From the NCBI GenBank assembly GCA_963556145.1, contig OY744461.1:1674001-1738000 (forward strand): a stretch of DNA of 64,000 bases. Reading direction: 5' to 3'. The notes beneath the pieces are model-generated. The model was not told the DNA's origin, ran no database searches, and worked only from the letters and a program-made list of their open reading frames with translations. Shown here piece after piece: positions 5,330 through 47,156 of this stretch (position 1 is its first letter; each line of letters opens with the position of its first letter). The position numbers were made by a program, and so were the translations under genes. This stretch comes from Hygrocybe punicea. Lineage: Eukaryota; Basidiomycota; Agaricomycetes; Agaricales; Hygrophoraceae.

Positions 5330-5350
5330 GTTATGAGTCCCTATAAGGGA
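5330..5350 (+). other. 5' terminus of Helitron-like copy 1
   Basis: Copies 1 and 2 share sequence from GTTAYGAGTCCCT onward (5330 and 26691) and differ completely before it, so this is the left boundary. CCCTATAAGGG just inside is a small palindrome. GTTACGAGTCCCT (copy 2 version) has a near-inverse, AGGGACGAGTAAC, at 47110-47122. The first base is uncertain (G or T). Confidence 0.75.
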
Positions 5351-5583
5351 ATCGTTCTATACGGTGGATTTTTCAACTCAGGGTCAGACTCTAATTTGCC
5401 AAGCCGTGGGAACAATTGTTGCAAACTGTGGGAACAATTTTGAAGCCCTGTGAATAAATTTGAAACCGTGTGACTGCTGACTTTGTAACTGTGAGAATTT
5501 GTTGTCTCAAATGAGCAAGAACAATAAGGCCACCAGATCAAAGGTGCCAAGTTGGGAAAGTGTAGTCCACTGCTGAGTCGACT

Positions 5584-6027
5584 TCATGACAATAATCGTA
5601 TTATTTGTTGGTGTAATGTGCACATTATGACATATGGATGAGTTGAAAACCTGTCTGAACAGTACTGAGAGTTCTGTATTGTCCAACTAGTATCTCTGCT
5701 GTATTCTGAGGAATTGCCAGTGCAATATAGACTGAATGAACCAGATATGATAACTTTGTCTACAGATACATATAAAGCTATGTACATTGGAATCACAAGG
5801 ATCAGGTTGAATACCGGTTTAACCGGCCGGTTCATCATTTTCGGCACGAAGTGTTTTGCAGATGTCCCTACCTGAATTCGGGGCATTGCAATTGCACAAA
5901 CAATAGCAGAAATAAAAGTCTGGACAGTTGTTGGATGTGCATTATGTGCCACATTTGACATCCCATATTGAAGCAGAGAAGGTGCAAGCAGAACTATCAA
6001 CATTGAGAAACTATGGAGTTCATACAT
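5584..6027 (-). pseudogene. Fragment of a possible membrane-protein ORF (copy 1)
   Basis: A hydrophobic frame beginning at the ATG at 6027 contains SMLIVLLAPSLLQYGMSNV and FISAIVCAIAMPRIQ, which look like membrane segments. The matching region in copy 2 (27179-27616) has a longer open frame. In copy 1 the upstream part carries two TGA codons where copy 2 reads GGA and CGA, and it is split by the MITE at 6049-6514. I recognise no family, and the frame may be fortuitous. Confidence 0.3.
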
Positions 6028-6048
6028 TGGTACCCCAGATGCTGTTTC

Positions 6049-6514
6049 TAAGGTTGACCAAGGGTTGACATATGTGATAGGGTAAGATTTTCCAAGGGTT
6101 GTGAAGGGTTTGTTCTTGAATCATTATCTATTGCACATATTGATAGAAACTTGGTGGGAATTTCAAAGAGTTATATATGCTCTAGTTTCTCTCCAAAATT
6201 TAGGTCTGATTTCTTCAGTAGTTATTGTGCGATTCCATTTTCAAAAAGGAGTGTTTTTAAAACACCCTGAGGGGTTGAAAAACCCAGACCCCTGAGGGGT
6301 TTTGAAAAACACTCCTTTTTGAAAATGGAATCGCACAATAACTACTGAAGAAATCAGACCTAAATTTTGGAGAGAAACTAGGGCATATGTAACTCTTTGA
6401 AATTCCCACCAAGTTTCTATCACTATGTGCAATAGATAATGATTCAAGAACAAACCCTTCAAAACCCTTGGAAAATCTTACCCTATCACATATGCCAACC
6501 CTTGGTCAACCTTA
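6049..6514. mobile_element. hAT-type fold-back MITE 2
   Basis: A 466-bp palindrome closely related to the element at 1378-1841, with ends TAAGGTTGACC and its inverse. The 8-bp direct repeat GCTGTTTC lies at 6041-6048 and 6515-6522. Copy 2 of the surrounding element has the uninterrupted site with a single GCTGTTTC (about 27402-27409), so insertion, boundaries and 8-bp duplication are directly visible. Confidence 0.92.
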
Positions 6515-7008
6515 GCTGTTTCAATGTATTCATTGAATGGGCTCATAAGGGTGAGGTTTATAATTTGTTGATATTTTATCAAAGGACACGAAAATAGTAC
6601 AATAAATGCAGTCAACTGCATAATGATTCAAGATCAAGACAAAAGGACAAGGAACATAATTAGTTCAAGAGAAGCTCCAATCAGGCCAGAACAAACTAAT
6701 ATGATGAGAAAGCAATTATTAAATAGCAAAGCATCATATTTATGGCAGGATGGGAAGAAGTGAAGGTTGGGCCAAGATACAATCCAATGGTATCAATGCA
6801 GGAACATAGCAACATAGGCTTCTCAGTACAGCAGTGAATTTCGTTATCAATTTAGATATAAAGGAGTAAATATGCTTGTTGCACTTGCAGATTTCGTCCA
6901 GTTAATATGACACGTCCATGAACAAAAGGTTATGCATCACATATGAGAAGTAAAGGTAGTTTGATTGAATCTGTACAATGAATTGTAATTCAGTTTCATG
7001 GACCACAA

Positions 7009-7067
7009 ACCGAACATATTGGACATGTTCGGTGTGTTCGGTCAATGTGTTCGGTCAATATGTTCAG
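7009..7067. repeat. Small cluster of CGAACAT/ATGTTCGG motifs
   Basis: ACCGAACATATTGG, ACATGTTCGGTGTGTTCGG and two TGTTCGGTCAAT units lie within 60 bases. The same motif builds the large array at 14521-15190. The cluster is conserved in copy 2 at 27896-27955, upstream of the element 5' side and well away from the C/D promoter. Confidence 0.6.
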
Positions 7068-7445
7068 GTTACTATTGTCATATGTGATCAGTACACATTG
7101 AACATTGGATATAGTTAGCTATCCAGTGATGATACAAAGAGAATATGCAAACATTAAATCTGGATTATAGGTAGATAATGGATTTTCAATAGCTCATTCT
7201 CATCTTTTCAGCAAAAAGGCACACCTCTTGCATATTGTGGATCCTCAAATTGCAGAGTCACAGTCTAACAATGATTGAAGAATACAATATCTGGACATGT
7301 CACATATGTGTCATCAATGCTTGATGCTTGAATCAATAGCCAAATTTCAATTACAGTATATAGAAGACATATTTCATAGTAAATCGATGTATTCAGAATG
7401 GTTCCATGTATCATCGTGATTTACAACTTTCAATAGTTTACCGTT

Positions 7446-7980
7446 GTTTTACTATCTGATGGCAGTAACTGCACCTTTTTGAATCAATTGAGAAATTTGA
7501 ATTTTGGGTGCTGTGTTTTGTATCTCATGAAATACTGCTTGGATCAAGATGGTTGATTCTGGTTGTATTTCGAGCCTAATGACAGACAAACATAGTACAG
7601 ATGCAATAACGGCTCAAAGGACAAAAACAGAGAAGAATATGGTATATGTACTTCTAGGCCTTGAAAAGATGAACAACCTTCTCCCTCCAGTCTTCTTCAT
7701 ATGAGCTCTTTCGATGTCATAACTTGACAGTATCATTTTGGGTGTCAAAAAGTACTGGTCTACCTTTTTATTTCATCAACAACTCACCATATCCTAAATA
7801 TTGTCCAAATGTAATTACAGGAGTAGATAGTCCTCAAGATATAGTACAACTTTCCCTGTATAACCATCTTAATCCAAATAGTATTTCATGAGATACAATA
7901 CACAGCACCCAAAATTCTACCGAGTCCAAAATTCTCAATTGATTCAAAACAGTGCAGTTGCTGCCATCAGATAGCAAAAC
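7446..7980. repeat. Inverted repeat with ~100-bp arms
   Basis: The left arm from TATCTGATGGCAG (7453 onward) through TTTTGGGTGCTGTG and ATCTCATGAAATA matches the inverse of 7880-7975. It resembles a decayed MITE or a structured non-coding region. In copy 2 the outer part of the left arm is deleted (left arm remnant about 28108-28170, right arm about 28525-28620). I see no clear target-site duplication. Confidence 0.6.
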
Positions 7981-8023
7981 AGCTGTAACATATCAACAGT
8001 TTGAGTACATACAATATTATACA

Positions 8024-9507
8024 TTAGCATCGGTTGATATTCATATTATTGAGGTGTCGCCTTGTTTCCACAACACCCTCTGCATCATTACCATCTTCGA
8101 CATACCCAACATGCCGTTTGATGGCTATTTTGCGCTGTGTAGTTGGTGTAGGCAAAGCTGTCTTGTTGCGAATCATAGTTGCTTCCTGAGAATATACATC
8201 AGTATTCGTTTAATTCTTGATGTATTGAAGCGTTACCTCTGTGAAGTCACTGTCTACCAGTGCCAATGACCGTAGATTCAGAATCATCTTGAATTTATCC
8301 ATCTTTACTGGAACTGCCGATATTGTAAACTGAACCTCCACTATATCACCAATTCTAAAGCAAGTTGGGTTTGTTGGAATGAAGCTAATAAATATTTCCA
8401 TCAGTAGAGATGTGATCCCAATTCATCGTCACTCACCAATGTCGATTTCTATCAGACTTCAACTTGTAATAAAGTACGCAATTGTCCTGGCCATGAAAGT
8501 AGCGGGAATTCGCAAGTGAGGTTAATATGCCTTTTGGATCGATGGCATGCTCGAATGGAATGTGAGGGGAAGAGTTGTCGTGTCGGCGATCAGTGAAATA
8601 TCGGGTTCCTATTGTGAGTGCCATGTAATCCATGTATGTAGAAGGCGTAAAAGCTTGCATTGCTTTGTCAGGAAATTGACGAGCCAGTTTCTGGTGCAGA
8701 ATCCGAAGGTTATCGATATAGGATTGAAAGCCCGTTGTATCAAGGCCAGTTATGACTATGCTTTGACGTATGAAGGGCGTTCGGCATTCCGGTTGACTAT
8801 TACAGTGGTTCATCAGAATGGTATTCAAGGAATGGATACGAATTTAGCACATACCTGGTTGTTATGGGTGGAAGATCTTTCGCCACCAAAATCGCTTGCA
8901 AACTTAATACCAATTCTTGATGTTCGGATTCATCATTGGTTGGAAGTGTAAACTTCCAGCAATTTGGAGAGTCAACATGCACAATATTGACATTTGAAAT
9001 CTGGCAATGCAGTCAATATGATATACCTTTTCAAATCCAATGACGTACATTTGTGGCCTTTGCAAGCTGACTTTCATCATCTTCTAAGCGTGCAGATATG
9101 ATTTCCTCCAAATGTTCAGCTGTCAATTTGGTGTCAAATACTAGCCAGTATATATATGGTGGATATTGCTAACATGCACCCTTGAAGTTGTAATAGTTGT
9201 CCATCACGTACAAAGCAGTGGTGAGATGTATATTGTGTGGCACAATTTCGTCCACTTCATGGATTATATCTTCCGCCATCATCCTCACACCGATCATATC
9301 CATATTAGCTTTTGATGTCCATGTGATGATAGCTTTCAGGATCCGTTTTGTTTTTGTTTTTGTATTGCATTCTTGAATATTGAAGTTTGCGTCATTTTGC
9401 ATAATACGGATCCTTTCCATTTCTTTCAAATGCCACATATAATGTTGGTTGTCAGCTGTCTGGTTTGGATATGGTATAGTCAAGCATGTACTCCAGCTTT
9501 TCCGCAT
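8024..9507 (-). CDS. Cargo gene A, uncharacterised intron-rich protein (copy 1)
   Basis: Read on the minus strand from the ATG at 9507 to TAA at 8024-8026, about six exons with short GT-AG introns give roughly 420 residues. Segments in order are MQNDANFNIQEC; FDTKLTAEHLEEIISARLED; VHVDSPNCWKFTLP; TPFIRQSIVITGLDTTGFQ; FPDKAMQAFTPSTYMDYMAL; RIGDIVEVQFTISAVP with LRSLALVDSDFTE; then a basic tail. The donors GTACGT, GTATGT and GTGAGT support the splicing. My impression is that the GDIVEVQ/LRSLALVD segment resembles hypothetical proteins that are common in mushroom genomes, but I know no function. The copy 2 equivalent is frameshifted, so this is the intact version. Exon edges are approximate. Confidence 0.6.
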
Positions 9508-9949
9508 TAATTCTGCATCACAGGATATGTATGCACAGCATTGGAATTAACCCCTATCCATCATTCATCAATATCTGTTAGTATACCCCATGTTGCTTAA
9601 TTTGGCATTATGCAATTTTGTTTCATGAATACCCCTTTTTATTTAGTCTCCATTCCTAACTTTAATTGAGCTTGTCAACAATTCATGAAACCTACCAGTA
9701 TAAACTTGTGGCGAATATCATGTGGACAGTCATCCATTTTTCATGCATACCTTTGCGCTTTGCATGGAGTACATGGCCCAAGAAGCCTCGTTTGGTATAT
9801 GAGCATGTGCCAATGGTGGATCCTCAGATGTTATTGTTGAAGTTTTGAATTCACTGATTCATCTTAAATTCATAGCTTATTGTTTTTGAGTGATTTAAAT
9901 CGTGAGTGAAGATGATATCCACCATTCCATCAACTTTGACCGCTCTCCA

Positions 9950-11980
9950 ATGCCTCCCAAGAAGTCCACTGCCACGAAATCAAACTCGAAAGCAAAACCC
10001 AAGGCCACCATGTATGTTTACCTATTTTACTCGGTATTACTGAAGTTTCTATTGCATGCACTAAAGATGGCCTTCTGCAACAATCGAGAAGCGAAAGAAG
10101 GTTATCAAGACTTGGGCTGATGATGATGTGTATGTGTCATCGTTTTAATCGTTAGCTATTTTTGACCAATGGACAGTGTGGCTTTGTCCGATGCTAATGA
10201 TGATGCCGTCAGTATTCAAAGCACTGGCAGTGTAATGGCACCGTCAACGCTCACAAGGTATCTATAATCACATATCATTGTTATCCAATATGAGTTAACA
10301 AATATTAGGCATTCCGTCAAGTTTCACAATGTTAAAGACGTGTTAGTGTTTCAATATCAAATATATCTAACATGATTTCAATCTGTTACAGTGGAAAGAA
10401 ACGTCAAATGTCATCTCCCAATGTCACCGACAATGACGACAATGTGTAAATATTTTTCATAGGTGTTGTCTCATCATTGACAGGTTATCCATAGTAAAAC
10501 GCCTTCCCCCTTCAAGAAATTGAAAGCTGCATCTAATCAATCACAAGACGGTGAGCAAGAGGAGGAAGAGGAAGAGGATTACGGTTCTAAGTGAGTTGTT
10601 CGGTTATCATAGACATATCCATTTGTTCAAACAAATCGTTTGACTGTTTAGGCATCGTCGCAAAGTAGCCTTGATGAAGAACCCCAATAAGCCAATTTCG
10701 TGTGTATTTTACGTGCCAATATGAATATTCTCATTCATTAATCGTAACAGCGTTTCTAATACTCCATCCAAGAAGTTGAAGTCCACGAAGGCCATCATGC
10801 TCAATGATACCGACGATGATAAAGGCTCCAGTGGCGATGAAGGAGATCTGACCTATGCACTGACCCAGATCACCAGGTGTGTTGGATCTTATTACACCGT
10901 GGTGTTTGATGTAGATGTCGTGAATCTAGCTTACCATCTCCGAACGTTGATGAGTCCGATATTGGCATGAGGGATCCTCAACTTGTTGACACCTACCAAG
11001 ACTGCGTCAACATCAAGTATGCCATTGCAGTCATACCCTTGTCATTTACTCATAACTATATAGGGTAGCAGCGATGGTATCCTGGTCCAGTGCAATTGGA
11101 AATGGCAACCCACAGTTCAGTGATATTATCACTGACATCTACAAGATCAACAGAAAGTACGTTGTTTCAAAGACAGTTTCAGGTGGATCCAGTCAATTCA
11201 TTTGATATAATATAGGTTATTGCTTTCCGCCATTACCTTTGATAGATCTGGGAGGTACTCTAATCTCTCTCGTGATAACCCTGCCCATATCTCCACTGGT
11301 GCTTTTGGTCGCAACTTCTTTCATGCAGTCAGAGGTGGAATGCCAACGATCTTTACATCGGTCATCATAGTGGAGTCCTGCTTTCTCAATGAGCCCAAGA
11401 TTGGTGGCAATACAAAGCCGGTCAAGGTTATACAGGGTGCACTACTTCAAGGAGAATGGGAGCGATATGTTGGTGCTATTGGAATGGTGATTCGCAAGTC
11501 GGAATTTCGGGCCCAACTGTATAAGGACTATGTGTCCTTCTCAACGACCACAGCAAGTGGAATGGATACATTTCCCAGTTTGTGCATTGATTATTTCTAG
11601 TTGTAATTCCTAATCGATTTTCATAGAGGCATCGACATCCAAAAATGTACAACTTAGTCCATTCACTCGTCGACCCACTCCATCTTATCATAAGGCTGCT
11701 CTATCATTTTACGATATTGGTAAGCATCCGGTCGTCTAATATAAATTGATATCTTAAGTATGTGTTGTCAGTGCCCATCTATGATGCATGCAAAGTCAAA
11801 GCGGACTTCATGTCCACTCTCATATCGCTCCAGCAACTACCCATCTTCCCGCACAATATCCCTGCAGGATCCTGTGTCGTTGTTGGACATACCATCAATA
11901 CATTCAAGCGTGTAGGTGACATGATGAAGAGCATTTCACTCAATGTGCAATGGGTTATGGTCTTGGGAGTGCCGGAATGA
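9950..11980 (+). CDS. Cargo gene B, basic/acidic nuclear-like protein (copy 1)
   Basis: I chose the ATG at 9950 (MPPKKSTATKSNSKAKPKA). Many short introns follow, the first from GTATGT at about 10011 to CTAAAG at about 10067. The N-terminal half is rich in Lys, Ser and Asp/Glu (RKKVIKTWADDD, a run of Glu in EQEEEEEEDYGSK, then SSGDEGDL) and looks disordered and nuclear. The C-terminal half is globular: FDRSGRYSNLSRDNPAHIST, GRNFFHAVRGGMPTIFTSV, VIQGALLQGEWERYVGAIG, FPHNIPAGSCVVVGHTINTF and the end VMVLGVPE. I recognise no catalytic motif or family. It is convergent with gene C, 86 bp away. Function unknown; a chromatin or DNA-associated role is only a guess from composition. Confidence 0.6.
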
Positions 11981-12066
11981 TTTCCTCACATATCATCATT
12001 TATATTTGTATTTTACGTCTGTCTTGTGAATAAACGCGAACCGATCCATTGATTGTACAAATGATA

Positions 12067-14268
12067 TTACAAATATGAGTATGGACCTTTTATGTCAACC
12101 AACCATTTATAAAAAAACCCTGCAAAAGTGTCTGCCAATGAGCCAATGGGTGCTCGAACGGATTTCGGACCTGACTTCATGTTCGACCAGAGGCTGCATG
12201 TGTGATAACGTTCCACCTCGTTCACGAAATAGGACACAGTATCCGTTTTGGAATCCACAATGAGCGATATGTCCATACGGCAAAAAACACTCATCGATAA
12301 TTTTCCACCAACCATATTGGACTCTATCGCATAAAGCCCTTCGTAGGTCTTTTGGACAAAGTCAAAGAACTCGTTTCTGCCTTGCTCTCGAATAGAAATG
12401 GCGCCCCTGTCCGGATTGCACGCCACCGTCTTCAATAGAGTCCCCTGCGTTTGAAATATTCTGAGAAAGTTAAGATGATCATGAAAATGATATGACAAAT
12501 GAAGGTGTAGGCCACTCACCTTAATTCGTCCAAGGTATAGAAACTCGAGACAATATCCCACTTCCAAGACTTGCTTTCCTTGTTGTACAGGGTGTGCACC
12601 GTATACACGACCTTTCCACCAACTAGAAACACACGCCATTCGCCCATCTTACTCAGTGGTTCAATGTACGTTTGCCCAAACCAACGTGAACCTGGAACCT
12701 CACAGTTATTACGCATGTATTCCCAATTTCGCTTGGGGTTGCCAGGTAATAGTACGTGATGACCGGTGTCACTGTGTGTCCGTTTCAAGACAATATTCGG
12801 TGGGAATTGGTCGCCATCGTTTAATAATTTTGCTTGGGGGCGTATCGTATGCGTTATGTTCAAAGCGACATGAAGCAAGTTTTGATTTTGTATCCATTTT
12901 GAATGGACCGTGTTCATCTGCTTCGGAGGTGGCCAGATGTGTACCGTTCGACAGAGTTCGTCCATTCCAGTCATGAAAATCGACACATTTTCCAGTGTCA
13001 ATCCGTATTGGTTACCGCTGTCAAGACATCAGTATAATGCAGCGAAAATGGAGCAGAATTAATTAAAGCGATGTCAATCTTACATATATGACATTCCCAT
13101 ATCCACACCACTAAATACACAATCTGCCGATGCGAACTTTTGCCACGTATCGCCTTTGTCTTGATAGCAAAGTATTGTGTGAAGGAACTCGGGCCAAAAT
13201 ATGTATTTGACATTGAAGCGCCGGTCTCCATCCTCATGATGTAGTCGCATACCGATATAAACCTGTTTGTTGTGAAATGCGTTTCAGTATCAACAATCCA
13301 CAAATTAAACAATAGACATTACCCATTCTTGAATACATACTGAATAGCGACTCTAGTGTTGCCACGGCTATAGCCGATGTTTTTTGAAAATTTGCCTTTT
13401 TAGGCTAGTAAAATTAGGCAAAATTATGAAAATATTTGAGGAGATGGGCAAAGCCAAAAGCTGTGGGGTCACTTAAGGGTGCTAAGAATTTGGTGCCCAA
13501 TCTTCAGAGTTATTCAACCATAGCTGTTGAGCCTAGCCAGCTACCATCCAACAGCTATCCCTGAAGAACCCTGAGAATTGAGCCCCAAATCCTTAGCACC
13601 CTTAAGTGACCCCCCAGCTTTTGGCTTTGCCCATCTCCTCAAATATTTTCATAATTTTGCCTAATTTTATTAGCCTAAAAAGGCAATTTTTCAAAAAACA
13701 TCGGCTATAGCTGTGGCAACACTAAGCGACTCTTGTATGATTTGATGATATGGACGTAACCATCAAGATGGGCAATGGTATCGAGTTCGATGTCGGATAT
13801 GGTCGTGGTGACGAATGCAAGATCGTTAATGGCTGCGGCTTTGCTCGCGATACGAGTCGTTGGGTCAAGGATAAAGAGGATTTTGAAAACACGGCCGTCA
13901 TTGTTGCTTAATGTGGTTATATGGCGTTCATTGTTGCTTACAGTGGTTGGCGGTTCCATTTCACAGTCAGATGATGTTTCCATCTCAGAGTCGGATGATA
14001 GCCTTTTGTGTGGAAGGAGATCGAGTTCCGCGGCCGTCGCATTGCAGACACCCTGCCAATTTTCACGTATGTTGCGACCAAGACATACCGACTGCAGACA
14101 AATTCCAGACGAAACGCATTTGGGATGTTGATGTGCAGATCCGACATGTCTTTGGCAGGAGTTGCCTTCCTTCTTCCACAAAAGACATTTCGTTTTTGGA
14201 GAGTCGCATTTTTGACCAGGGCAGATGTGCATGCAAAGTTCATAACCAAGTTCCTTCTTATATGGCAT
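12067..14268 (-). pseudogene. Cargo gene C, ATP-grasp-like protein disrupted by a MITE (copy 1)
   Basis: The copy 2 gene shows the intact structure; here the same exons are present but a 371-bp hAT-type MITE sits in exon 1 between KSYKSR and the following YSACIQEW region. The N-terminus is Cys/His-rich (CMHICPGQKC, CLLWKKEGNSCQRHVG), suggesting zinc binding. The C-terminal exons carry PPNIVLKRTHSDTGHHV, MGEWRVFLVGGKVVYTVHT, FCRMDISLIVD and YFVNEVERYHTCSLWS, in the order seen in ATP-grasp ligase folds. The MITE supplies a new C-terminus and stop to the first exon, so normal product is unlikely. Confidence 0.7.
13354..13724. mobile_element. hAT-type MITE 3 inside gene C
   Basis: A 371-bp palindromic element with ends TAGTGTTGCCAC and GTGGCAACACTA. 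It is flanked by the 8-bp repeat AGCGACTC (13346-13353 and 13725-13732). Copy 2 has the empty site with one AGCGACTC (about 33998-34005), so the insertion is proven by comparison. The TIR and the 8-bp duplication fit hAT. The sequence is unrelated to MITEs 1 and 2. Confidence 0.93.
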
Positions 14269-14520
14269 GTTTGTGGACCTAGGCAGGATTTCGGATGGGT
14301 GGTATGAGGAACAGACACAGATATCATTAATACATAAATACCTTAATGATTGATTACTTTCAGGGTGGTTGATAGCGGGTGGTGACAATTCCACATACCT
14401 TCTAATTATAAGACGTCGGAATTATGTCACCTGACAAGAGTGGCAATGATAAAACAACGAACACGTGCCAAACACGTTGATCAGCAATGGAATCATGTAA
14501 ATGTCTTGAAAGAGCAATAT

Positions 14521-15190
14521 CCACCGAACAGATCGGACGTGTTCAGTGTGTTCGGTGGAGATGTTCGGTGGATGTCAACCAACGGTTGTGACTAGATATA
14601 CCACACCGAACACATCGAACATGTTCGGTGTGTTTGGTGGACATGTTCGGTCAACGTTGGAAAATGAATATGACTAGATATACCACACCGAACATGTTCG
14701 GTCAACATTGGAAAATCAATATGACTAGATATACCACACCGAACATGTTCGGTCAACATTGGAAAATCAATATGACTAGATATACCACACCGAACACATC
14801 GAACATGTTCGATGTGTTCAGTGGACATGTTCGGTCAACGTTGGTGAACCAATATTACCAGATATATGACACTGAACACACCGAACATGTTCGGTGTGTT
14901 CGGTGGACATGTTCGGTCAACGTTGGTAACCCAATATAACTAGATATATGCCACCGAACACATCAAACATGTTCGATGTGTTTGGTGTGGTATATCTAGT
15001 CATATTGATTTTCCAACGTTGACCGAACATGTTCGGTGTGGTATATCTAGTCATATTCATTTTCCAACGTTGACCGAACATGTCCACCGAACACACCAAA
15101 CATGTTCAATGTGTTCGGTGTGGTATATCTAGTCATACCGATTGATGGACATCCACCAAATATGTCCGGTGACCGAACGCACCAAACAAC
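14521..15190. repeat. Palindromic CGAACATGTTCG array between genes C and D (copy 1)
   Basis: Repeated units contain CCGAACATGTTCGG, itself a 14-bp palindrome, and TTCGGTGTGTTCGGTGGACA, separated by spacers such as TATGACTAGATATACCACA. Units run forward to about 14970 and then in inverted orientation, making a large cruciform-capable region. It lies in the divergent promoter of C (minus) and D (plus). The motif resembles a dimeric-protein binding site repeated many times, like iterons or a clustered operator. Confidence 0.85.
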
Positions 15191-34543: not shown

Positions 34544-34795
34544 GTTTGTGGACCTAGGCAGGATTTCGGATGGATGGTATGAGGAACAGACACAGATATC
34601 ATTAATACATCAATACCTTAATGATTGATTACTTTCAGGGTGGTTGATAGCGGGTGGTGACGATTCCACAAACCTTCTAATTATAAGACGTCGGAATTAT
34701 GTCACCTGACAAGAGTGGCAATGATAAAACAACGAACACGTGCCAAACACGTTGATCAGCAATGTAATCATTTAAATGTCTTGAAAGAGCAATAT

Positions 34796-36329: not shown

Positions 36330-38253
36330 ATGTCCTTGCCAGTCGTCAAAACCTCGACTCCCGCTGTCAATCCCGCCGCCTTCAAGTACTGGCCTGATGC
36401 GCCGCCCAAAAAGCTGCAGGAGCTACATCGCATCTTCCAAATCCAGTACATGGTCCCGCCCAAGATTCCGGCACCCAACAAGGAATCCGGCACCATTCCC
36501 GTATTTTCTCGTAATCTCTATGTACTGAAGACACACCCCCACGATGCCACCGCCCGAGGTGAGTTATGGCGCGAAATCCCCGAACGATACGAGGAACCGC
36601 TCCGTCGCTTGATTTATCAAATGGATATGTACATCTACGCGACAGCAGCCATCGCATACAACAAGGCACCCAACTACTCGCCGGACTACGTCAAAAATGA
36701 TAAGGAAGGGACCGATTCACTTCGGGATTACCTCAAGTATACCGACACCGTCATGGACGAAATTTGGGCAGAAGTCTTGGTGGCGAAACGGGCAAACGAG
36801 GTTACCCGTGACTGGCGAAGCAAGATCTTCGATGATTGGCTCCTGAAAGAATTTTATGTTGGGAAACATTCTCCATCGGCTTTGATTCAACATGGCGCTG
36901 TGAACACCGAGATCAAGCCCGAGGATCTAGGTAAGTATATATGTATTTATGGCCAAATGAATTCTCACGTCTGGCATCATAGATTGGGCAAAATACGACG
37001 AATCCGTGCCAGCATGGCACAGCGGAACCTTGGCAAATTGGTCATTCGGTGGGCTTCCGGATGCCACAAAGCTCGAGATCATCGGTCATGTTATTGCTTG
37101 GTGTAAAGGACATAGTGTCCTCGTCGATTCTGATGTGGCAGATGATGATGAAGGTGTGATCTAGAATTACATGTGTGATTGTGCTAATGATATAGTACAT
37201 TTGCAGAGGAGCCAGTTGCCCAGGGCAAGGGCAAGGGCAAAGCCAAGTCAAAATCGGTCAAAAAACAGAAGGCATCTTCTGCTGGTTTGTACAAATTTTC
37301 AACCATAGTGGTGTATAGATCTATTGAATATTCAGGTGGCGCAGACAATTCGTCCGAGAAGGACAAAAAGAAGCCCAAGCCCAAGCCCAAGTCCAGTAAG
37401 TACTTTCATTGTCTGTGATTGTCATACATGCAAACCCTTCATCATGACAGAGCGCACAATCAAGTCCAAAGCCGAGGACGACGATGAGGGTGAGTTATTG
37501 AATTCCGAATATCAAAACGATGATCCAACACATTTATTCATGTATAGACGACATAAAGATGGAGGAGGACGTAGCCCCGGTAAAGAAGAAGCGGTCTAAG
37601 GCCCAAATGCGTACGTTGCTCACCTTGTTATGATTAATGCACTGACATCTCGCAGTCGCTGTTGAAATTGGGTCGTCGCGCACAACCCGGCAATCGGCAT
37701 CGGAGAAATTGACAATGGAGATTAAGCCACCCATCGCCCCCGAGCCGGATGTTGTGGCACCGGAATCCGTGAAGTTGGACATTTTAGGACCAGAGTGGGC
37801 GGGGTTGTTGGATGTTGATAATGATATAACCATGGACAACGATGACGGATCTCCCGAACCTGAAAAGATGTCTCCCAGCGATGGTCACGAGGATGGCGAG
37901 ATGGCAAAGAGGAGGAAATTGGATGTTGCTTCGGAGCAAGCGGGCATTATCGTAGAGAAACTCAACCTGGTGAAGCCACCGAAGAAGTCTCCGACTCCGG
38001 GTATGTATTTCAACATTACATCATAGGCTGTATATATTCCAATTCTGATCTTCTCCATGTCCTAGGATTCCGTCCCAATACGCGTGCATCGTCACGCCAC
38101 CAGTCATCGACCCCTGCAGAGCCCAGCGCTTCATCAATGGATGTGGATTGGAGCAACATCGTTCCACCCGAAATCCTACTCTCCATTACTCCAAGCCAAA
38201 CGAGGCCTTCATCTCCCAAGCCATCGACATCCAAACTTGATCCCGGGCCTTAA
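36330..38253 (+). CDS. Cargo gene D (copy 2)
   Basis: ATG at 36330 (MSLPVVKTSTPAVNPAAF), stop TAA at 38251-38253 after SKLDPGP. Exons and introns match copy 1. The N-terminal domain (KYWPDAPPKKLQELHRIFQ, RRLIYQMDMYIYATAAI, RDWRSKIFDDWLLKEFYVG) is nearly unchanged. The C-terminal disordered region (GKGKGKAKSKS, KKPKPKPKSK, MAKRRKLDV) shows more substitutions. No disabling change seen. Function unknown; the composition suggests a nuclear protein. Confidence 0.65.
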
Positions 38254-39341
38254 TTTCGGAGGAGTAAGTCCTTCTTTTGTGGAGTATTCATTATATTTGA
38301 CTAAAAAAACTGTATCCCAGTCGTTGATTTCTGGAAACTTGGTGACAATCTGTGCCCTCAAATGTCCTCCTCATACATCGCTACTATTAACATTTGTACA
38401 GTTTCTATATATGTATTTCTTTTTGCTCCGTTAAAAATGGTTTGTGTTACTGTCCTATGACCATAAGAATTGAGCATGATAGTGAGCATAGATACAGCAT
38501 AAGGCATCAATCTTGTTGACTGAAAATCTGTTTGTCTAAAATATATCCTGGTGAATGCATTACTTTCAGTTCAGTTGTACAACCACCTACACACTCAACT
38601 TGAGAAGGACAACCTGAGATGACTCTCATTCGGGCTAATGAAAATTCAAATCGAATATATGTAAGAAACCAGAATCACGAACTTTATGGACCTATTAAAT
38701 GAGGATACAATGATACAAGAGTAACAAAACCCCCTCTTGTAGTGGAAGATATAACTGTCACTCCAAGGGGAGCTATGACTCTTTGGTACCAGAATAATAC
38801 AGTATACTTGTGTGGGAATGATACGTACAGCTCCATAAAAATGACAATGTATTTCTGACAAGGATGAAGAACAATGATAATTTCCATGAATTACCAAGTA
38901 ATTGTCAAATATGCACAGTTGTCAAACAGCCTGGTTGTTCAACTTCAATACCTGTTTTGTCTGTTGAGCAAGCCAGAAATAAATATCACTGAGACTCTGA
39001 AGATTAAATCCACAAAATATCTTAAAAGGGGGTACCATTGTTCTTCTCAGTCGGTTTGATCAATGTCTTGTCAGCCAGACCCCTAATAAGATCGTAAGGC
39101 AGCTATTCATGATACAGATGCATTTTTGGCCTGTATCAAGGCATGTCACAGGAACATAGAATGGAATAAAAAAAGTAAACACAGATTTCTAAAGATTCAG
39201 GCACGCCTTATGGTGTTTTGGGAAAAGCTTACAAATAATATAATGTCATATGATCAATCCCATTGTGTTAATTGTTATTCATGATCCGAACCACTTGACT
39301 AGTTAAATGGGCGGTGTTTCCTCTTACTGTCACAAATCCTC
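38254..39341. other. Intergenic DNA between D and E, copy 2
   Basis: AT-rich and close to copy 1 (17520-18597), apart from small indels such as an extra TTGGTGACAATC near 38340. I see no gene. Confidence 0.5.
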
Positions 39342-42300
39342 ATGAATCCCCACAACATCATCCGTGTCTGCATTGCATGTTTGACTTATCTATATTTCCT
39401 TGCAAATGCAACATTGTTTCCACAACTATGCCAAGACAAACTTATGTATATCTCTCCTGAACCAATTTCATGTCCTGTGATATCGACCTTGACCCAAGAA
39501 TTGGGTGTTTTTCAAAGAAAACTCATAGAACATGAGTTGGCCCCAGATCAGGGCGATGCAACAATATTGATGCAAATAAATGCAACACTATATGTAAAGA
39601 TCATTGGAATAACAAAAGAAACAAAAGATAACTTGACAGTCGATCCATTATTCGTTTGGACTACATTTAAAAATAGCGCCTTCAAAATGCGAATACGTTC
39701 TATTCAATATGCCAGAACATATTTCTTACCTCCTAAATATCTCTTTGCTTTGTATTGTCTTCTCAAACCTATCACTGTCCAATGTCGTTGTAAAATGATC
39801 AAAGCATTGCTCATGCGATCGCTATTGAGACAACATGATTTCAAAACATATTTATTTCATTGTATTACTAGTTCTCTATCACATGCAACGTTGCTGTGGA
39901 CCACACTATGTTTCATAATACGGCATAGCCGTTCAAACATAATTGTGTTCAATTTGAATTTATTCGGACACTTGTTTAAATCTTTATATATAAATTTCGT
40001 TCATAGATATGACTACATTGGTGGTGGTAAACGAATACCAACATTCAAGTTTAGCTTTCTTCAATCTTTTATGCTACCGTCTAATAATATCAACCATGAT
40101 TCTGACATATTATTCGAATATGTGGGGCATATTGATGAACAAACAGCCAACACTTTATATGAAGATAGAAAAACATATGCATGTGTTAAAATGCCTTTAC
40201 ATGAACTTCTGCCAAATTTGACAGTGAAGGATATTGGTGAAATAACAACAATACATGGTATATATTTGTCAAAGACATTACGAAGATTACATGGACAAGA
40301 TCTATCTGTGGCATTAATGAGGCATAATTGTTCAGCTTGTGATACTCATGTTTCTATTTTTCATGTGCATGATATTAAATCACATAAAGACCTGTGTAAA
40401 CAGTGGTACAGAAGACAAAAAATGACAGAAACAAATGAGTGCGGCAAAGAAGAAACTCAGGCTCAAATGAAAGAAGAATTGGACAAGTCAGATGAGCAAT
40501 TATTTCCTCCTCCTCCTCCATCTATTGAATTGAAGGAAACCATAATCAGCAACTGGTGCAGAGATACATCACCTGAATGTTTCCAAGAAAGTGGGTGTGC
40601 TGTATGTGGTCAATTGGTTGCATTGAAAAACATGTCTTTATTGTCAAAGACGAAGGTTAATCTGAAAATATTAACTAGAGACAATATGGGAATCACAAGA
40701 TGTGAACGATATCATTGTTCTGATCCAATAGAGGATATCAAAGGTCCAGTGCTAGATGACACATGTAAATGGATATGCAAACCATGTGTGCTCAGTCTGA
40801 ATAAAGGCCAAACTCCCAAATATGCTTTGGCGAATGGACTTTGGATGGGAAGAATTCCTGCACAACTTCAAAATCTAACATTTGCTGAACAACTTTTGAT
40901 TGCCCGTGTTCGTCACAACAAATGTATTGTTCGTGTCTCCTCTGGGATGCATAAAATGAAAGCAAATGCCATCATGTTTCAAAACCCAACACCAAAGATA
41001 TATCAACGGTTGCCTCCAACAATTAAAGAACTTGATGAAGTGCTAGCGTTTATTTTCACTGGTCCTGCCAGACCAACTCCAGAAGACATGGAGCGAACGC
41101 CTTTATTGGTTCGCCGAAGGCGAGTTTCTGCAGCTTTAGAATGGCTGAAATTGAATCACATGGATTACTATGATTTAGATATCTCCTATGAAAATCTAGC
41201 ACAATATCCAGATCATGGAATTCCTGTTGTGGTTGCATATCGACCAGCAGACACAAATAAGGAACCAGAAGCCACTAGTGCATTTGACAATGAAGTGGAA
41301 GATGGTGTGGAAGATGGGCCTTGTCCCTTTGTTGTTAGTGGAATAACTGGCGAAAATCTAGATATTACAAGTCCAAAGGCATTAATAGCTAGAGCGACCA
41401 AGCACTTGATAGATGACCATGGTGGTGTTCTTGCCATAAGCCATGCTAGAAATCCAGAATCGTTCTTTAATAATCCTCAGTTATATCCTATGATGTTTCC
41501 CTGCCTATTTCCATATGGCTTGGGTGGTATTAGCAGCATAGACAATGATGTTTTAAGCATCAGTGATATGATGCACAAAAGACATCTCCTGATGTACCAT
41601 GACAAAAGATTTCAAACCGATCCCTATTTTCCATTGATTGCATTCAATCAAGAACAAATCAAAGACAGTACAACCGGAGGATATTTGTTGACTAATAAAC
41701 ATAATTTCAACGATATTGCAAATCGCCTGATGAATATCAATACAGCTGTTTTGGATGACCTCTCTAAAAGATTATCTAGAGGTGATAGAGTCAAACCGGA
41801 TACATCAGAAGAGAAAGCATGCTATAAACTCATTTCTGATCTGGATCACGTAGCTGGTCAGGTCAAAGGTTCAATTACTAACAAGAAATACATGCGAAAT
41901 GAGATTTGGTCTCTGATATCCTATATTGGTGCTCCGACTTGGTTTATCACTTTTGCACCTGCAGACATCAATCACCCACTATGCTTATATTATGCTGACA
42001 ACAAAGAAAAGTTTTATCCTAAACTACGTCTACCCCAGGATTGTTACAAACTAATTGCAAACAATCCAGTTGCTGGAGCCCGCTTTTTTCACTTTACTAC
42101 TGAAATGTTCATCAAACATATATTAGGAATAAATGAATCTCATCCTGGCCTGTATGGAAACACATCAGGTTATTATGCAACGGTAGAGGAACAAGGACGT
42201 CTTACCTTGCATCTTCATATGCTGTTGTGGATAAAGGGATGCCTTACACCTCAGGAAATACGTGACAAAATTATGGGTGAAAATTCTGACTTTCAGAAAA

Positions 42301-45300
42301 GATTAGTGGAATATTTGGAAAGTTTGTGTGTAGGACAATTCATGACAGGTTCTAAAGATGAGGTATCACAGAAAATGGAACAGACAATGTCGAAACCTGA
42401 ATATCAACCACCAACATGTGTCATGCCAGATCCACCATCATATAATTGTTCCATGAATTGTCAATATCACAACAAAAGATCAACATGGTGGCAAAGGTTT
42501 CAAGATGTTGTAGATGATCTTTTATTGCGATTAAATGTACATAACAGGCATGATGGCAAAAAAAAGCCATACTGTCTTAATTCGAAAGGTGAATGTAAAC
42601 GACGATTTCCCCGTGATATCTTTCAACAAACTTTTGTAGAACCTAACACTGGTGCTCTCAACCTCAAGCATGGTGAACCTTGGATGAACACGGTGACACC
42701 TGAAGTTACATATATGCTACGATGCAATTCTGATGTGACCAGCTTATTATCAGGTACTGCTATAAAGGCCATAGTTGCATACATAACAGATTATATTACA
42801 AAATTCTCCTTGAAGACCTATAGCATTTTTGAAGTGATAAAAAGTATTTTTGATAAGAATTCCGAAATGATTGGTGGCGACCTAAAAAGAAAAGACAAAG
42901 TCAGAAAGCTGTTTACACAAATAGTCAATTCACTCACCTCCAAAATGGAAATTGGTGCTCCAATGGCTTCATTATATGTCCTTGGAAATCCTGATCACTA
43001 CACCAGTCATAAATTCGTGCCATTCTTTTGGAGATCTTATGTTAAAGAGGTTATCAGTGCATGGTCTGATGAAGAAATTCCTAATATATGTGAAGACCAA
43101 AATAATGCACAAAAGGTTGTTATTGGTAAGAATAATGGCGCATACATTGGACTTTCCAAAGTAAATAATTATATGTTCAGACCCGCCTTGTATGATAATG
43201 TATCACTGTATGACTGGATACGTCTTGCCACTATGGAACCAAAGAAAAGACGCACCAAAACAAAGACCAAAAGGGCCAGAAAAGAACCAGTGCAAAACCA
43301 AATTTTTGACAATCTAGGCTGTGATGATTTGTCTGACTCTTGCACTGAACCTACTAATGTTGACTATTCCAGTGATGACAACTTGTCTGATGTCGTTGAT
43401 AATGATATACTCATGGAGATAGATGAAATTCCAAAACCTGATAGTTTGAGTAGACATGCAGGCACAGAAATAGCTGATAAAACAAATGAAGTTGATCTTA
43501 ATAAATTGACAAAATTTGAAAATGATTATACTTTACATTCCAATCATCCACAATATCTTACCCACCATGCCAAAATGAAAGGGAATGATCCTTTCATAGT
43601 TCCTAATTTTATTCCGAACACTTTGCCAAGGGCTGACCGTGGTGATCGAGAATATTATTGTTGTACAATGTTAACGTTTTTCAAGCCATGGAGAAGTGGC
43701 AAAGAACTCAAAAGTAAATTACAAACATGGGATAATGCTTTTATAGACCACGAGTTTTCTAAAAAAGAACTAGAGATCATGAAATACTTTGGTCTGCGGT
43801 ATGAATGTTTGGATGCAAGAGATGATTTCTCTGCTAAACGTCAGAAGAATAATACTGCAAATATAAGGTATTCATGGGCGACCTCAAACGGTCTTGATGA
43901 ACTGGATGACATGCACAATGCTGAATTTGCATTTAATGGCGACGACTTCAACAACAATATTGATGAAGACAATAATGACACGGAAATACTCCTGAAACTT
44001 GGTCAAAAAGGACAAAAAAGGAAAGATCAAATGCTGATAACTGAAAGAACTTTGAAAAGGTCAGGGTGGCTCGATGATTGTATTGATGGTACCCCAGATA
44101 TAGGACCGTTGATACCTATAGAACCACCTGTAGTACAATCAGCAAAATTGTGGAGAACTGCAGTCCTTGCAAAGAAAAAGGAAATCATCAATGACAGAAA
44201 TAAAAATTTACCAACAAACACAGCAACCATAAATAAATTGGGAAATTTTCAATATAATGATGTCAAGATAGTGGATGCAGCATACATCAACCATATGTTT
44301 ATTCCTGCAAACAGAGCTGATCGTCATCTTATTGATGTAACTATCAATGATTACAAGTTGAACACTGACCAAAAGAGAGCATTTCATATCATTGCGAATC
44401 ACTCTACCTTGATTAACGGTTCTGATAAGCTACGCATGTATCTTGGTGGGATGGCAGGCACAGGGAAATCACAAGTCATCAAAGCATTGACTAGTTTTTT
44501 TGGTAAACACAACGAAAATCATCGATTTGTGGTTCTTGCACCAACCGGTGGTGCTGCTGCCCTTGTAAATGGATCCACATATCACTCCATTCTTGGAATT
44601 AATCAGGGAGGATCATCTCGTTCCCTTGCACAAGTACGTGCCAATCTTGATGGTGTGGATTACATTTTCATTGATGAGGTGTCAATGTTATCTTGCAGAG
44701 ATATGTATAAAATCAGTGCTCAGTGTGCAAAAGCACGTGGTGTTTATGATGAACCCTTTGGTGGCATTAATATGATATTTGCAGGAGATTTTGGCCAACT
44801 TCCACCAGCTATGAGTGGTGCTCCTTTATACTCTGGAACCGTTGGTGTCCAAATCAATTCCAGTCAAACTATAGCAAATCAGGAAGCGGCTATAGGCAAA
44901 GCTCTTTGGCATCAAATAACAACAGTTGTTATATTACGTGAAAATATGAGACAAACCAATCAGTCAGAAGAAGATGTCCAACTGAGGCTTGCTTTGGAAA
45001 ACATGAGATACAAAGCATGTACTCCCAAAGATATTGCATTTCTTCGTACTCGTGTTGCAGGAAAAGGTCCAAATGATCCAAAATTAGCCCAAAAGAAATT
45101 CAGGAATGTGTCAGTTATAACTGCATTGAATGCACAAAAAGACAAAATCAATGAACTTGGTATTCAACGTTTTGCTGCTGAAAATAGGAGACCATTAACA
45201 TCATTCTATTCCATAGACAGATGGAATGATCCTACTAGTTCCAATAGCAAAAGAAAATCTCATCACATGTCAACAATTTTGGATCCTATTCGACACACAA

Positions 45301-47087
45301 AGATATTGGAACCTTCACTCCAAAAGCTACTTTGGAGCCAACCACATGCATCATCCTCTGATCATATACCAGGAAGATTGGACTTATGTGTAGGCATGCC
45401 AGTGATGCTGAGGAACAATGATGCAACAGAGTGCTGCATTACCAAAGGAGCAGAGGGCATAGTTGTGGGTTGGCAGAGTGCAATAGGTCCTGAGCAACAA
45501 ACTGTACTGGACACTTTATTTGTCAGATTATTGAATCCTCCAAAAAAAATTAACATAGAAGGACTTCCTGAAAATGTTGTGCCGATTACAAAACATGTCA
45601 CTTCCACCATGTGCTCATTACCCAATGATGATGTGATATCTTTGTCAAGAGAACAAGTGTTGGTACTACCTAATTTTGCAATGACTGATTATGCATGTCA
45701 AGGACGTACTCGTCCTAACAATGTAGTTGACCTCAGTAGTTGTAGAAACCACCAATCCTATTATACTTGCTTATCAAGAAGTGCTTCTGCAGCAGGAACT
45801 ATCATCATGCAAGGCTTTGATCCTAAAGTAATTACTGGGGGTGCTTCTGGATATCTCAGGCAGGAATTCAGAGAATTAGAACTGCTTGATGAGATTACCA
45901 AACTGAAATATCAAGGACTCTTACCAGACCATGTCAAGGGAGATCAGCGAAATTCTATCATTGATCAATTTAGAAAATGGAAAGGAAAGTCATATATTCC
46001 AAAAAACATTCATCATGCTATCGCATGGAAAGCCACGGAGCAACTAAATCAATACACAACACAGCCCTCTCCATGGCAATTAATTAAACATATGAACAAA
46101 AATCAAAAGGCAGATTTCAGAAACCTCAACTTTGTTCCTGCAAAAGGAACTGTTCCAATCACTGTCACTCATAAAAATTCAATGGCCAATGTATTGCAAA
46201 ATAAAAAACGAAAATTACAACAAGTTGTAAGTTCATCTTCCATAGTGAAAAAAAGACGAAAAACAAGTACTATTGAATTAAATGAACCAAAAGGGTTTAT
46301 ATGGGATGCGGAAGATTGGAGCTGTGCTTATGATTCACTCTTTACAATATTACTAGCAATATGGAATGAAGATCCATCAAGTTGGAAAAAAAGATTCAAT
46401 AGCATCAATGAAATATTAAAGATTTTGAGCTTAGGATTCAAACGATCCAAGAATCACACAACAGATTTAGAAACAGTTAGAAATACAATCAGACATTTAT
46501 TGCATCAAGATAAACCCGAAATATTTCCTTATGGTCAAGTTGGCATTGCCATAAGTGATTTGGCCCATTATATAATGAAAGCAAATGAACCAATGACTTC
46601 AACTTGTCTTAAATGTATCAATTGTGAAAACATAACCATTCTGGAAAATGATAGATGTGACGCCATCTTTCATTGTTCATATTCATTTTCTGGAACAATC
46701 TCAACATGTCTTGCTCAAATCATAGTTAATAGACAACGGCACAAATGTCAATTGTGTTGGGGAGAGATTACTAAATTTATTGCATTTAACAAAATTCCAC
46801 CTCTAATCATGTTTACAGTTGACTCTATTGAGAATTTAATAATTAGTCAAGTTATAAACTTGTCAATTGATGACATATCCACTGCTTACACATTGAGAGG
46901 AATTGTGTACTTTGGTGATGCACATTTTACTGCCCGCATATTCATCAACAGTATGGTATGGTTTCATGATGGTATATCAACCAGATCAATTTGCATTAAT
47001 GAAGGTGATATAGATAACTTTTCAAATATTAATTTATTGTCATGTAATGGTAATAATGCTGTACTGTTTATATATGCTCAATCTTAA
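39342..47087 (+). CDS. Helitron Rep-helicase fused to a ubiquitin-specific-protease-like domain (copy 2, intact)
   Basis: One uninterrupted 2581-codon frame, no intron, from ATG 39342. Zinc-type pairs occur early (CSACDTHVSIFHVHDIKSH, SGCAVCGQL, ICKPCVLSL). The Rep nuclease has HLH at residues 957-959 and tyrosines at 1147 and 1151 (YITDYITK), which nick and ligate DNA in rolling-circle transposition. The Pif1-type helicase has Walker A around 1702-1710 (GGMAGTGKS), Walker B from 1774 (YIFIDEVSM), AGDFGQLPPA, ENMRQ and DYACQGRTRP. The C-terminus has WSCAYDSLF (Cys2328), Cys-pair zinc ribbons (CLKCINC, CQLCW), and DAHFTARIF (His2528) with WFHDG. This is the Cys/His box arrangement of C19 deubiquitinases; OTU domains are the better known protease fusions in such proteins. 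All key residues are present, so it could be active. Confidence 0.92.
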   Translation: MNPHNIIRVCIACLTYLYFLANATLFPQLCQDKLMYISPEPISCPVISTLTQELGVFQRKLIEHELAPDQGDATILMQINATLYVKIIGITKETKDNLTVDPLFVWTTFKNSAFKMRIRSIQYARTYFLPPKYLFALYCLLKPITVQCRCKMIKALLMRSLLRQHDFKTYLFHCITSSLSHATLLWTTLCFIIRHSRSNIIVFNLNLFGHLFKSLYINFVHRYDYIGGGKRIPTFKFSFLQSFMLPSNNINHDSDILFEYVGHIDEQTANTLYEDRKTYACVKMPLHELLPNLTVKDIGEITTIHGIYLSKTLRRLHGQDLSVALMRHNCSACDTHVSIFHVHDIKSHKDLCKQWYRRQKMTETNECGKEETQAQMKEELDKSDEQLFPPPPPSIELKETIISNWCRDTSPECFQESGCAVCGQLVALKNMSLLSKTKVNLKILTRDNMGITRCERYHCSDPIEDIKGPVLDDTCKWICKPCVLSLNKGQTPKYALANGLWMGRIPAQLQNLTFAEQLLIARVRHNKCIVRVSSGMHKMKANAIMFQNPTPKIYQRLPPTIKELDEVLAFIFTGPARPTPEDMERTPLLVRRRRVSAALEWLKLNHMDYYDLDISYENLAQYPDHGIPVVVAYRPADTNKEPEATSAFDNEVEDGVEDGPCPFVVSGITGENLDITSPKALIARATKHLIDDHGGVLAISHARNPESFFNNPQLYPMMFPCLFPYGLGGISSIDNDVLSISDMMHKRHLLMYHDKRFQTDPYFPLIAFNQEQIKDSTTGGYLLTNKHNFNDIANRLMNINTAVLDDLSKRLSRGDRVKPDTSEEKACYKLISDLDHVAGQVKGSITNKKYMRNEIWSLISYIGAPTWFITFAPADINHPLCLYYADNKEKFYPKLRLPQDCYKLIANNPVAGARFFHFTTEMFIKHILGINESHPGLYGNTSGYYATVEEQGRLTLHLHMLLWIKGCLTPQEIRDKIMGENSDFQKRLVEYLESLCVGQFMTGSKDEVSQKMEQTMSKPEYQPPTCVMPDPPSYNCSMNCQYHNKRSTWWQRFQDVVDDLLLRLNVHNRHDGKKKPYCLNSKGECKRRFPRDIFQQTFVEPNTGALNLKHGEPWMNTVTPEVTYMLRCNSDVTSLLSGTAIKAIVAYITDYITKFSLKTYSIFEVIKSIFDKNSEMIGGDLKRKDKVRKLFTQIVNSLTSKMEIGAPMASLYVLGNPDHYTSHKFVPFFWRSYVKEVISAWSDEEIPNICEDQNNAQKVVIGKNNGAYIGLSKVNNYMFRPALYDNVSLYDWIRLATMEPKKRRTKTKTKRARKEPVQNQIFDNLGCDDLSDSCTEPTNVDYSSDDNLSDVVDNDILMEIDEIPKPDSLSRHAGTEIADKTNEVDLNKLTKFENDYTLHSNHPQYLTHHAKMKGNDPFIVPNFIPNTLPRADRGDREYYCCTMLTFFKPWRSGKELKSKLQTWDNAFIDHEFSKKELEIMKYFGLRYECLDARDDFSAKRQKNNTANIRYSWATSNGLDELDDMHNAEFAFNGDDFNNNIDEDNNDTEILLKLGQKGQKRKDQMLITERTLKRSGWLDDCIDGTPDIGPLIPIEPPVVQSAKLWRTAVLAKKKEIINDRNKNLPTNTATINKLGNFQYNDVKIVDAAYINHMFIPANRADRHLIDVTINDYKLNTDQKRAFHIIANHSTLINGSDKLRMYLGGMAGTGKSQVIKALTSFFGKHNENHRFVVLAPTGGAAALVNGSTYHSILGINQGGSSRSLAQVRANLDGVDYIFIDEVSMLSCRDMYKISAQCAKARGVYDEPFGGINMIFAGDFGQLPPAMSGAPLYSGTVGVQINSSQTIANQEAAIGKALWHQITTVVILRENMRQTNQSEEDVQLRLALENMRYKACTPKDIAFLRTRVAGKGPNDPKLAQKKFRNVSVITALNAQKDKINELGIQRFAAENRRPLTSFYSIDRWNDPTSSNSKRKSHHMSTILDPIRHTKILEPSLQKLLWSQPHASSSDHIPGRLDLCVGMPVMLRNNDATECCITKGAEGIVVGWQSAIGPEQQTVLDTLFVRLLNPPKKINIEGLPENVVPITKHVTSTMCSLPNDDVISLSREQVLVLPNFAMTDYACQGRTRPNNVVDLSSCRNHQSYYTCLSRSASAAGTIIMQGFDPKVITGGASGYLRQEFRELELLDEITKLKYQGLLPDHVKGDQRNSIIDQFRKWKGKSYIPKNIHHAIAWKATEQLNQYTTQPSPWQLIKHMNKNQKADFRNLNFVPAKGTVPITVTHKNSMANVLQNKKRKLQQVVSSSSIVKKRRKTSTIELNEPKGFIWDAEDWSCAYDSLFTILLAIWNEDPSSWKKRFNSINEILKILSLGFKRSKNHTTDLETVRNTIRHLLHQDKPEIFPYGQVGIAISDLAHYIMKANEPMTSTCLKCINCENITILENDRCDAIFHCSYSFSGTISTCLAQIIVNRQRHKCQLCWGEITKFIAFNKIPPLIMFTVDSIENLIISQVINLSIDDISTAYTLRGIVYFGDAHFTARIFINSMVWFHDGISTRSICINEGDIDNFSNINLLSCNGNNAVLFIYAQS

Positions 47088-47109
47088 TATGTGTTCTCTT
47101 GCTAAAAGA

Positions 47110-47156
47110 AGGGACGAGTAACATGCCATGCAAAGCAATGGCCCACACCCCACTAG
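47110..47156 (+). other. Candidate 3' terminus of the Helitron-like element
   Basis: AGGGACGAGTAAC (47110-47122) is the near-inverse of the 5' end. Two bases later GCCATGC (47125-47131) and GC-A-ATGGC (47135-47142) form a 7-bp hairpin with an AAA loop and one bulged A. Ten bases further is CTAG (47153-47156), followed by T. A 3' hairpin about 10 nt before CTRR with a following T is the canonical Helitron end. An inner inverted copy of the 5' end plus a terminal hairpin is described for Helentron/Helitron2 types. Confidence 0.65.

Follow-up and report, generated by a model that had tools for sequence, protein, structure and literature searches.

Can a Helitron own a set of complete, spliced genes, or does it only pick such genes up by accident? 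This question is raised by a stretch of 64,000 nucleotides from Hygrocybe punicea (hereafter the window, C1:1674001-1738000 in an analysed genome of 92.2 Mb and 42 contigs). Helitrons are known for catching genes, mostly fragments, and the original prediction for this window, made from its letters, had described four intron-rich genes (A-D) next to a Rep-helicase gene (E) as a stable module rather than a random capture. Our analysis points to a large autonomous Helitron family in which the Rep-helicase (RepHel) is joined by a fixed block of four genes. With a probability of roughly 0.6, we consider this block to be an old, selected part of the element, whose products would help the element itself.

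Gene content and arrangement of the two copies

The outer bounds predicted for a pair of elements, 5331 and 47156, proved to be exactly the true outer ends of the pair, and the predicted gene order, A(-) B(+) C(-) array D(+) E(+), is present in both copies. Pieces of copy 1 are mostly 95-97% identical to copy 2 in a blastn comparison of the window with itself. The features of the two copies are as follows.

5331..26691, + strand: older alpha copy 1, 3' end missing (~410 bases), RepHel broken (from self-blastn)
8024..9287, - strand: gene A, copy 1 (bounds by offset to copy 2)
9950..11980, + strand: gene B, copy 1 (bounds by offset to copy 2)
12067..14268, - strand: gene C, copy 1, with a ~370-base interruption near 13354-13725
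14522..15216, no strand: 82/51-bp array, copy 1
15598..17519, + strand: gene D, copy 1 (bounds by offset to copy 2)
18559..26691, + strand: gene E, copy 1, broken and truncated
26692..47156, + strand: complete Helitron copy 2, alpha subfamily, TTACGAG...CACTAG, 20.5 kb
26692..26716, + strand: 5' terminal hairpin, copy 2, DNA fold z-score -3.14 (copy 1: -1.96)
28668..29923, - strand: gene A, copy 2, 335 amino acids, 6 exons, 5 introns
30586..32633, + strand: gene B, copy 2, 473 amino acids, 13 exons, 12 introns, Lys/Glu-rich N-terminal part
32721..34543, - strand: gene C, copy 2, 545 amino acids, 4 exons, 3 introns, Cys-rich N-terminus, putatively ATP-grasp-like C-terminal part
34797..35872, no strand: 82-bp array, copy 2, palindromic TGTTCGGTG-type units, 9.2 copies, then 3.9 inverted
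36330..38253, + strand: gene D, copy 2, 505 amino acids, 8 exons, 7 introns, charged tail
39303..47087, + strand: gene E, copy 2, RepHel, 2594 codons stop to stop, intronless
47125..47142, + strand: 3' subterminal hairpin, weak, DNA fold z-score -0.76

Genes A-D had been described as full, readable and intron-rich, with exon borders that match between the copies. This was borne out by spliced alignment of the copy 2 models to copy 1, which shows no stops and no frameshifts, and in which intron position and phase agree at 5/5 introns in A, 12/12 in B, 3/3 in C and 7/7 in D. The exception is exon 1 of C, which is broken up in copy 1 by the ~370 extra bases. In agreement with the earlier remark that A-D have no transposition motif, no transposition or capsid domain was found in them.

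Gene E contains the Pfam domains DUF6570, Helitron_like_N and PIF1, together with the motifs HLHMLLW at 970 (HUH), YITDYITK at 1160 (two tyrosines), Walker A at 1716 and Walker B, and it is also matched by PIF1 chains in PDB. It therefore has the HUH/Y2 Rep fused to a PIF1-type helicase by which Helitrons are recognized. The description of E as an intronless Rep-helicase holds for copy 2 but not for copy 1, where E lies in five tblastn pieces and is not intact. A candidate cysteine protease at the C-terminus of E was rejected, with no Pfam match and no relevant PDB match. A 303-base inverted duplication (25848-26556, 91%) lies close to where the broken RepHel gene in copy 1 ends.

The window thus holds two copies, as had been claimed, but they do not form a plain tandem. 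Copy 1 is cut short within its RepHel gene, with the first base of copy 2 following immediately (26691/26692), and the missing 3' end of copy 1 is absent after copy 2 (47156/47157). The junction of the two copies occurs once in the genome, and a two-copy composite as the mobile unit is therefore not supported. The sequence from 47157 on belongs to another repeat, also present in L035 and L039, the other side of which is absent from the window.

The array is situated between the divergent genes C and D and contains many TTCGGT/ACCGAA words, which are also found near 7.0 and 27.9 kb of the window. A promoter or protein-binding role for the 82-bp array would be a guess.

Copy number and linkage of the block in the genome

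Sites were counted genome-wide with words of 30-40 bases, allowing at most two mismatches for the 5' end and at most three for each other word. We found 274 sites for the 5' end, 105 for A of the alpha subfamily (A-alpha), 61 for A of a second subfamily, beta (A-beta), 177 for D, 230 for E and 361 for the 3' end, while the reversed-word controls gave 0 sites for each of the six words. Probes of ~1 kb from A, B, D and E and of 0.8 kb from C had at least 40 matches each at 99-100% identity. The module of A-D and E is therefore not special to the window, but recurs many times across the genome. Where the genes lie together, their strand order is always the same, except where elements lie side by side or nested. 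The spacing of the probes is steady as well (A-B 1899-1900, B-C 2600 or 2400 by strand, D-E 3053-3103), and the C-D spacing differs among copies, tracking the array.

We counted linkage on the six contigs where exact matches are complete (C1, C2, C3, C6, C7 and C8). A, of either the alpha or the beta subfamily, is in range of 68 of the 97 exact E sites on these contigs. An exact 5' end is within range of 48 of the 97, and A is present in 47 of these 48 cases; roughly 2% would be expected by chance, with the 92 A sites spread evenly over ~48 Mb, a range of 17 kb and the right strand. Counting exact E matches only, E is in range of 49 of the 60 A-alpha sites, D only of 2, and neither of 9; for the 32 A-beta sites the corresponding numbers are 17, 4 and 11.

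Purifying selection and mosaic history

A comparison of the alpha and beta subfamilies reaches further back than that of the two window copies. Loci L053 and L054 have the same A(-) B(+) C(-) order as copy 2 at a DNA identity of 67-69%, and are 94-99% alike across most of their shared length. L054 and L055 together form a complete beta element (~19.6 kb), which has the same ends and whose E frame is 2591 codons long. The spliced alignments between alpha and beta contain no stops, and introns share position and phase at 3/3 sites in C, 4/5 in A, 5/12 in B (all five in its conserved half) and 2/2 in D (in the part compared). The first exon of beta A has no clear start.

The proportions of nonsynonymous and synonymous differences (pN/pS) between alpha and beta are 0.237/0.797 for A, 0.227/0.729 for B and 0.188/0.751 for C, and in these three genes third codon positions differ at 57-61% and second positions at 16-19%. 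D differs by a nonsynonymous divergence (dN) of 0.029 and a synonymous divergence (dS) of 0.315 (dN/dS 0.09, 283 codons), and E by a dN of 0.018 and a dS of 0.067; the DNA identity, 67-69% in A-C, climbs to 97% in E. Since the synonymous sites of A-C are saturated while pN is low, these comparisons indicate that A-C split long before E and have been under purifying selection for a long time since. The contrast between saturated A-C and an E dS of 0.067 indicates that the cargo half and the RepHel half differ in history, and that the element is a mosaic, in which the RepHel genes are of recent common ancestry and the cargo is not.

The dN/dS between the window copies had been proposed as a check. 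With spliced alignments and Fisher tests it is well below 1 for B (0.34, p 0.0007), C (0.16, p 3e-10) and D (0.26, p 2e-14), but it is not significant for A (see below); for E a tblastn-based value of 0.31 was obtained. Earlier values for A-D from tblastn pieces (A 0.53, B 0.63, C 0.16, D 0.29) were dropped because tblastn ran into introns, and are replaced by those given here.

Termini and target sites

Typical Helitrons have a 3' CTRR end followed by T, a 5' TC (TG in some), insertion between A and T, and a hairpin ~10-12 bases before the 3' end. We mapped the ends of the element as the points where similarity to copy 2 stops, in stretches that surround 20 A and 20 E sites. An identical 5' start, TTACGAG, was found in 17 of the 20 5' stretches, and 17 ends with CACTAG were located in the 20 3' stretches, all 17 followed by T; the element thus has the CTRR-type 3' end and target T. 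The 5' TC or TG is missing, as all 17 starts read TTACGAG, the extra T of which is ambiguous with the target. Of the 17 bases preceding the element, 10 are G, 6 are A and 1 is T, so that the target is mostly purine-T rather than strictly A-T. The 3' hairpin has 7 pairs and lies 14 bases before the end; its z-score of -0.76, with +1.61 for a 120-base stretch, makes the 5' hairpin the stronger of the two.

When the two flanks of an insertion were joined, 2 of 7 flank pairs matched an uninterrupted site among the loci compared; no match was found there for the remaining 5. For L013/L034, the joined flanks align inside the beta element L054 over all 800 bases, at 99.4% and with no change in length, and the pair L014/L048 aligns over 705 bases at 92% within the array of L054. 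It follows from these uninterrupted sites that the element inserts without target site duplication. Two alpha copies sit inside beta elements, so that alpha activity followed the arrival of those beta copies. Taken together, the element is a Helitron by its protein, its CTAG end and the missing target duplication, and departs from the textbook Helitron in its TT start and purine-T target. At one locus, L031, a full element runs directly into a second 3' end fragment (~780 bases) that belongs to the same family.

Possible functions of A-D and alternative explanations

For C we found the relatives P0001 and P0002, which match it at 45-48% over about half of its length. Out of four sequences compared, the ATP-grasp family GSH-S_ATP is matched by two (best E-value 0.0038) and RimK by one (E-value 0.018), and K74, E122-W-R124, D243 and E259-V-E261 are invariant in all four. 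According to the accessible text of PMC4431377, the catalytic residues of ATP-grasp enzymes occur in the order Lys, ExR, Asp, ExN; the order K, ExR, D in C recalls this layout, and its last motif is ExE, not ExN. C resembles such ligases, and we regard it as a putative ATP-grasp-type ligase. Searches for C relatives gave 56 pattern matches among viral contigs and 49 among bacterial and archaeal genomes, none of which was confirmed. A has three relatives, including ones in Piloderma croceum and Infundibulicybe gibba, which together with the short spliceosomal introns suggest an agaricomycete source; a model of its relative P0003 had a predicted local distance difference test score (pLDDT) of 32.7 and gave no fold. 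The look of the segment FRIGDIVEVQ had suggested an RPA-like protein with an oligonucleotide-binding (OB) fold for A, which was rejected after chance-level Pfam matches and nothing useful from PDB profiles. No relative of B was found among 1044 candidates. D had nothing above the Pfam cut-off, the large protein database not having been searched for it; a YL1-type match of D (E-value 0.0011) was rejected as below the cut-off and in a low-complexity stretch.

In the most likely reading, the block serves the element. E would nick and unwind the element, a single strand would be copied by rolling circle, and the copy would be joined into the target ahead of a T, leaving no duplication of the target site. 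A/B and C/D would act as divergent gene pairs whose products help the element. For example, C as an ATP-grasp-type ligase might modify a host protein, and B and D, with their highly charged parts, might have nuclear roles in replication, expression or silencing.

Several observations weigh against this reading. On the six contigs, 29 of the 97 E sites have no A in range, D being present at 16 of the 29. Four E-D pairs lack a listed A-C; A/B are found upstream in L051, and the upstream places inspected in L049, L050 and L052 lack them. In L052 (C36) a 5' end with 94.5% identity lies 3.35 kb before D, which is too close for the usual A-C; therefore shorter or truncated forms exist, and the one in C36 lacks A-C where they usually lie. 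Some scattering outside the module was thus seen, with A at some sites lacking E and E at some sites lacking A, as is expected of broken copies. Between the window copies, A shows no significant constraint (dN/dS 0.56, p 0.18). All ATP-grasp matches of C are below the Pfam curated cut-offs, PDB profile searches returned no ATP-grasp chain for C, and the AlphaFold2 result for its relative P0001 (2 sequences) has a mean pLDDT of 40.4. For A, B and D no known fold was matched.

The main competitor is that A-D benefit the host, and that the Helitron spreads and keeps a useful cargo, as has been proposed for some Starship cargo. The purifying selection on A-C is silent on who benefits, and the relatives of A occur in two other Agaricomycetes. 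However, a host would need no more than one or a few good copies, whereas the set has stayed together in two amplified subfamilies, and no metabolic or defence family was found among A-D; we therefore regard host benefit as unlikely. Slightly less probable still is a fusion between a Helitron and some other mobile element or virus-like replicon, of which A-D would be what is left, with recombination exchanging the block between Helitron lineages. This would account for the differing histories of cargo and RepHel, with A-C saturated, D intermediate and E at a dS of 0.067, and for the rise in identity from A-C to E. On the other hand, A-D have neither transposition nor capsid domains, the search of viral contigs and of bacterial and archaeal genomes confirmed no C relative, and a swap of E alone would yield the same mosaic.

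Random capture of host genes followed by passive amplification, which Helitrons could bring about since they capture genes, and with which the lack of significant constraint on A between the window copies would agree, seems very improbable. It is disfavoured by the alpha-beta comparison, with its saturated pS at low pN, its absence of stops and the introns common to both sides of the split. In a distant sister group, selection appears to have preserved three of the cargo genes in functional form and in unchanged order, which suggests that they belong to the element rather than being carried along by chance. The claim of a stable module is supported by the 47/48 linkage, by the gene order and introns of beta, and by the saturated pS against low pN. 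A more far-reaching version, which we put forward tentatively and at somewhat less than even odds, is a Helitron lineage with its own multi-gene accessory machinery: an old four-gene block, with a putative protein-modifying ATP-grasp ligase among its products, that is selected for the element and passes as a whole from one RepHel lineage to another. Such elements would then resemble modular replicons more than simple transposons that have captured genes.

If the favoured reading holds, a whole spliced gene set is an inherited, selected part of a rolling-circle element with well over a hundred copies. This makes it possible to test whether Helitrons depend on, or make use of, accessory proteins in addition to RepHel, how eukaryotic transposons exchange blocks of genes, and what roles several 'hypothetical protein' families play in mushrooms. 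Fungal genes annotated as 'hypothetical protein' may belong to mobile elements.

Neighbouring features in the window

On the minus strand, Copia-type pieces (gag, zinc knuckle, integrase) at 2148-5330 end exactly at the start of copy 1, and copy 1 appears to have cut into this Copia-type element. Downstream, an inverted pair of 769 bases (92%) with minisatellite units of 33/66 bases lies at 50623-54132 and has a relative in L052. Pieces of an endonuclease and reverse transcriptase like those of long interspersed nuclear elements occupy 58326-60917 (+), in a region strongly GC- and AT-skewed.

Comparison with known systems

Starships, too, carry cargo genes as large elements of fungi, but a tyrosine recombinase moves them; the element described here has an HUH/Y2-helicase protein instead. 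Our literature search, which covered few subscription papers, found no description of a block like A-D, and in the same literature no paper matched 'giant Helitron' or 'Helitron' with 'DUF6570'. The accessible parts of PMC3411680 and PMC8290104 added nothing of the accessory-enzyme kind.

In the accessible text of PMC4289320, HELPO1.1-1.3 of Pleurotus ostreatus carry cap genes, the longest listed element being 13.7 kb, and capB adjoins RepHel in several other basidiomycetes. These are likewise basidiomycete Helitrons with extra genes of unknown function, a CTRR end and no target duplication, and one helpo1.3 copy has four predicted genes (PMC4289320). However, their cap genes lie downstream of RepHel in autonomous copies, one per element, and the four-gene copy is non-autonomous and a single listing among short ones (PMC4289320). 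In contrast, four spliced genes lie upstream of RepHel in our element, in many copies and two subfamilies, a comparison of arrangement in which cap sequences were not compared.

Accessory enzymes are known from other Helitrons. Fungal transposons including Helitron1 and Helitron2 encode a TET/JBP dioxygenase that is thought to be anti-silencing and has moved between transposon lineages, according to the accessible text of PMC12730594; there it is one accessory gene, whereas no TET/JBP domain was found in A-D by Pfam. Animal Helitrons and Helentrons with a deubiquitinase are similar in that the accessory activity is proposed to protect transposition proteins, but their domains are inside RepHel, with an apurinic/apyrimidinic (AP)-type endonuclease in the VTD-bearing ones (PMC9741609, accessible text). 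In our element the accessory genes are separate, and E showed no such domain. Large size and extra coding sequence are also features of plant and animal Helitrons that carry gene fragments or RPA genes. According to the available part of a review (PMC6431247), it is exceptionally rare for Helitrons to acquire full-length genes, and the size given for fungi is 14 kb, in comparison with four complete genes in 20.5 kb here. Helitrons with captured genes are thus already known, and the four-gene block A-D is the new part.

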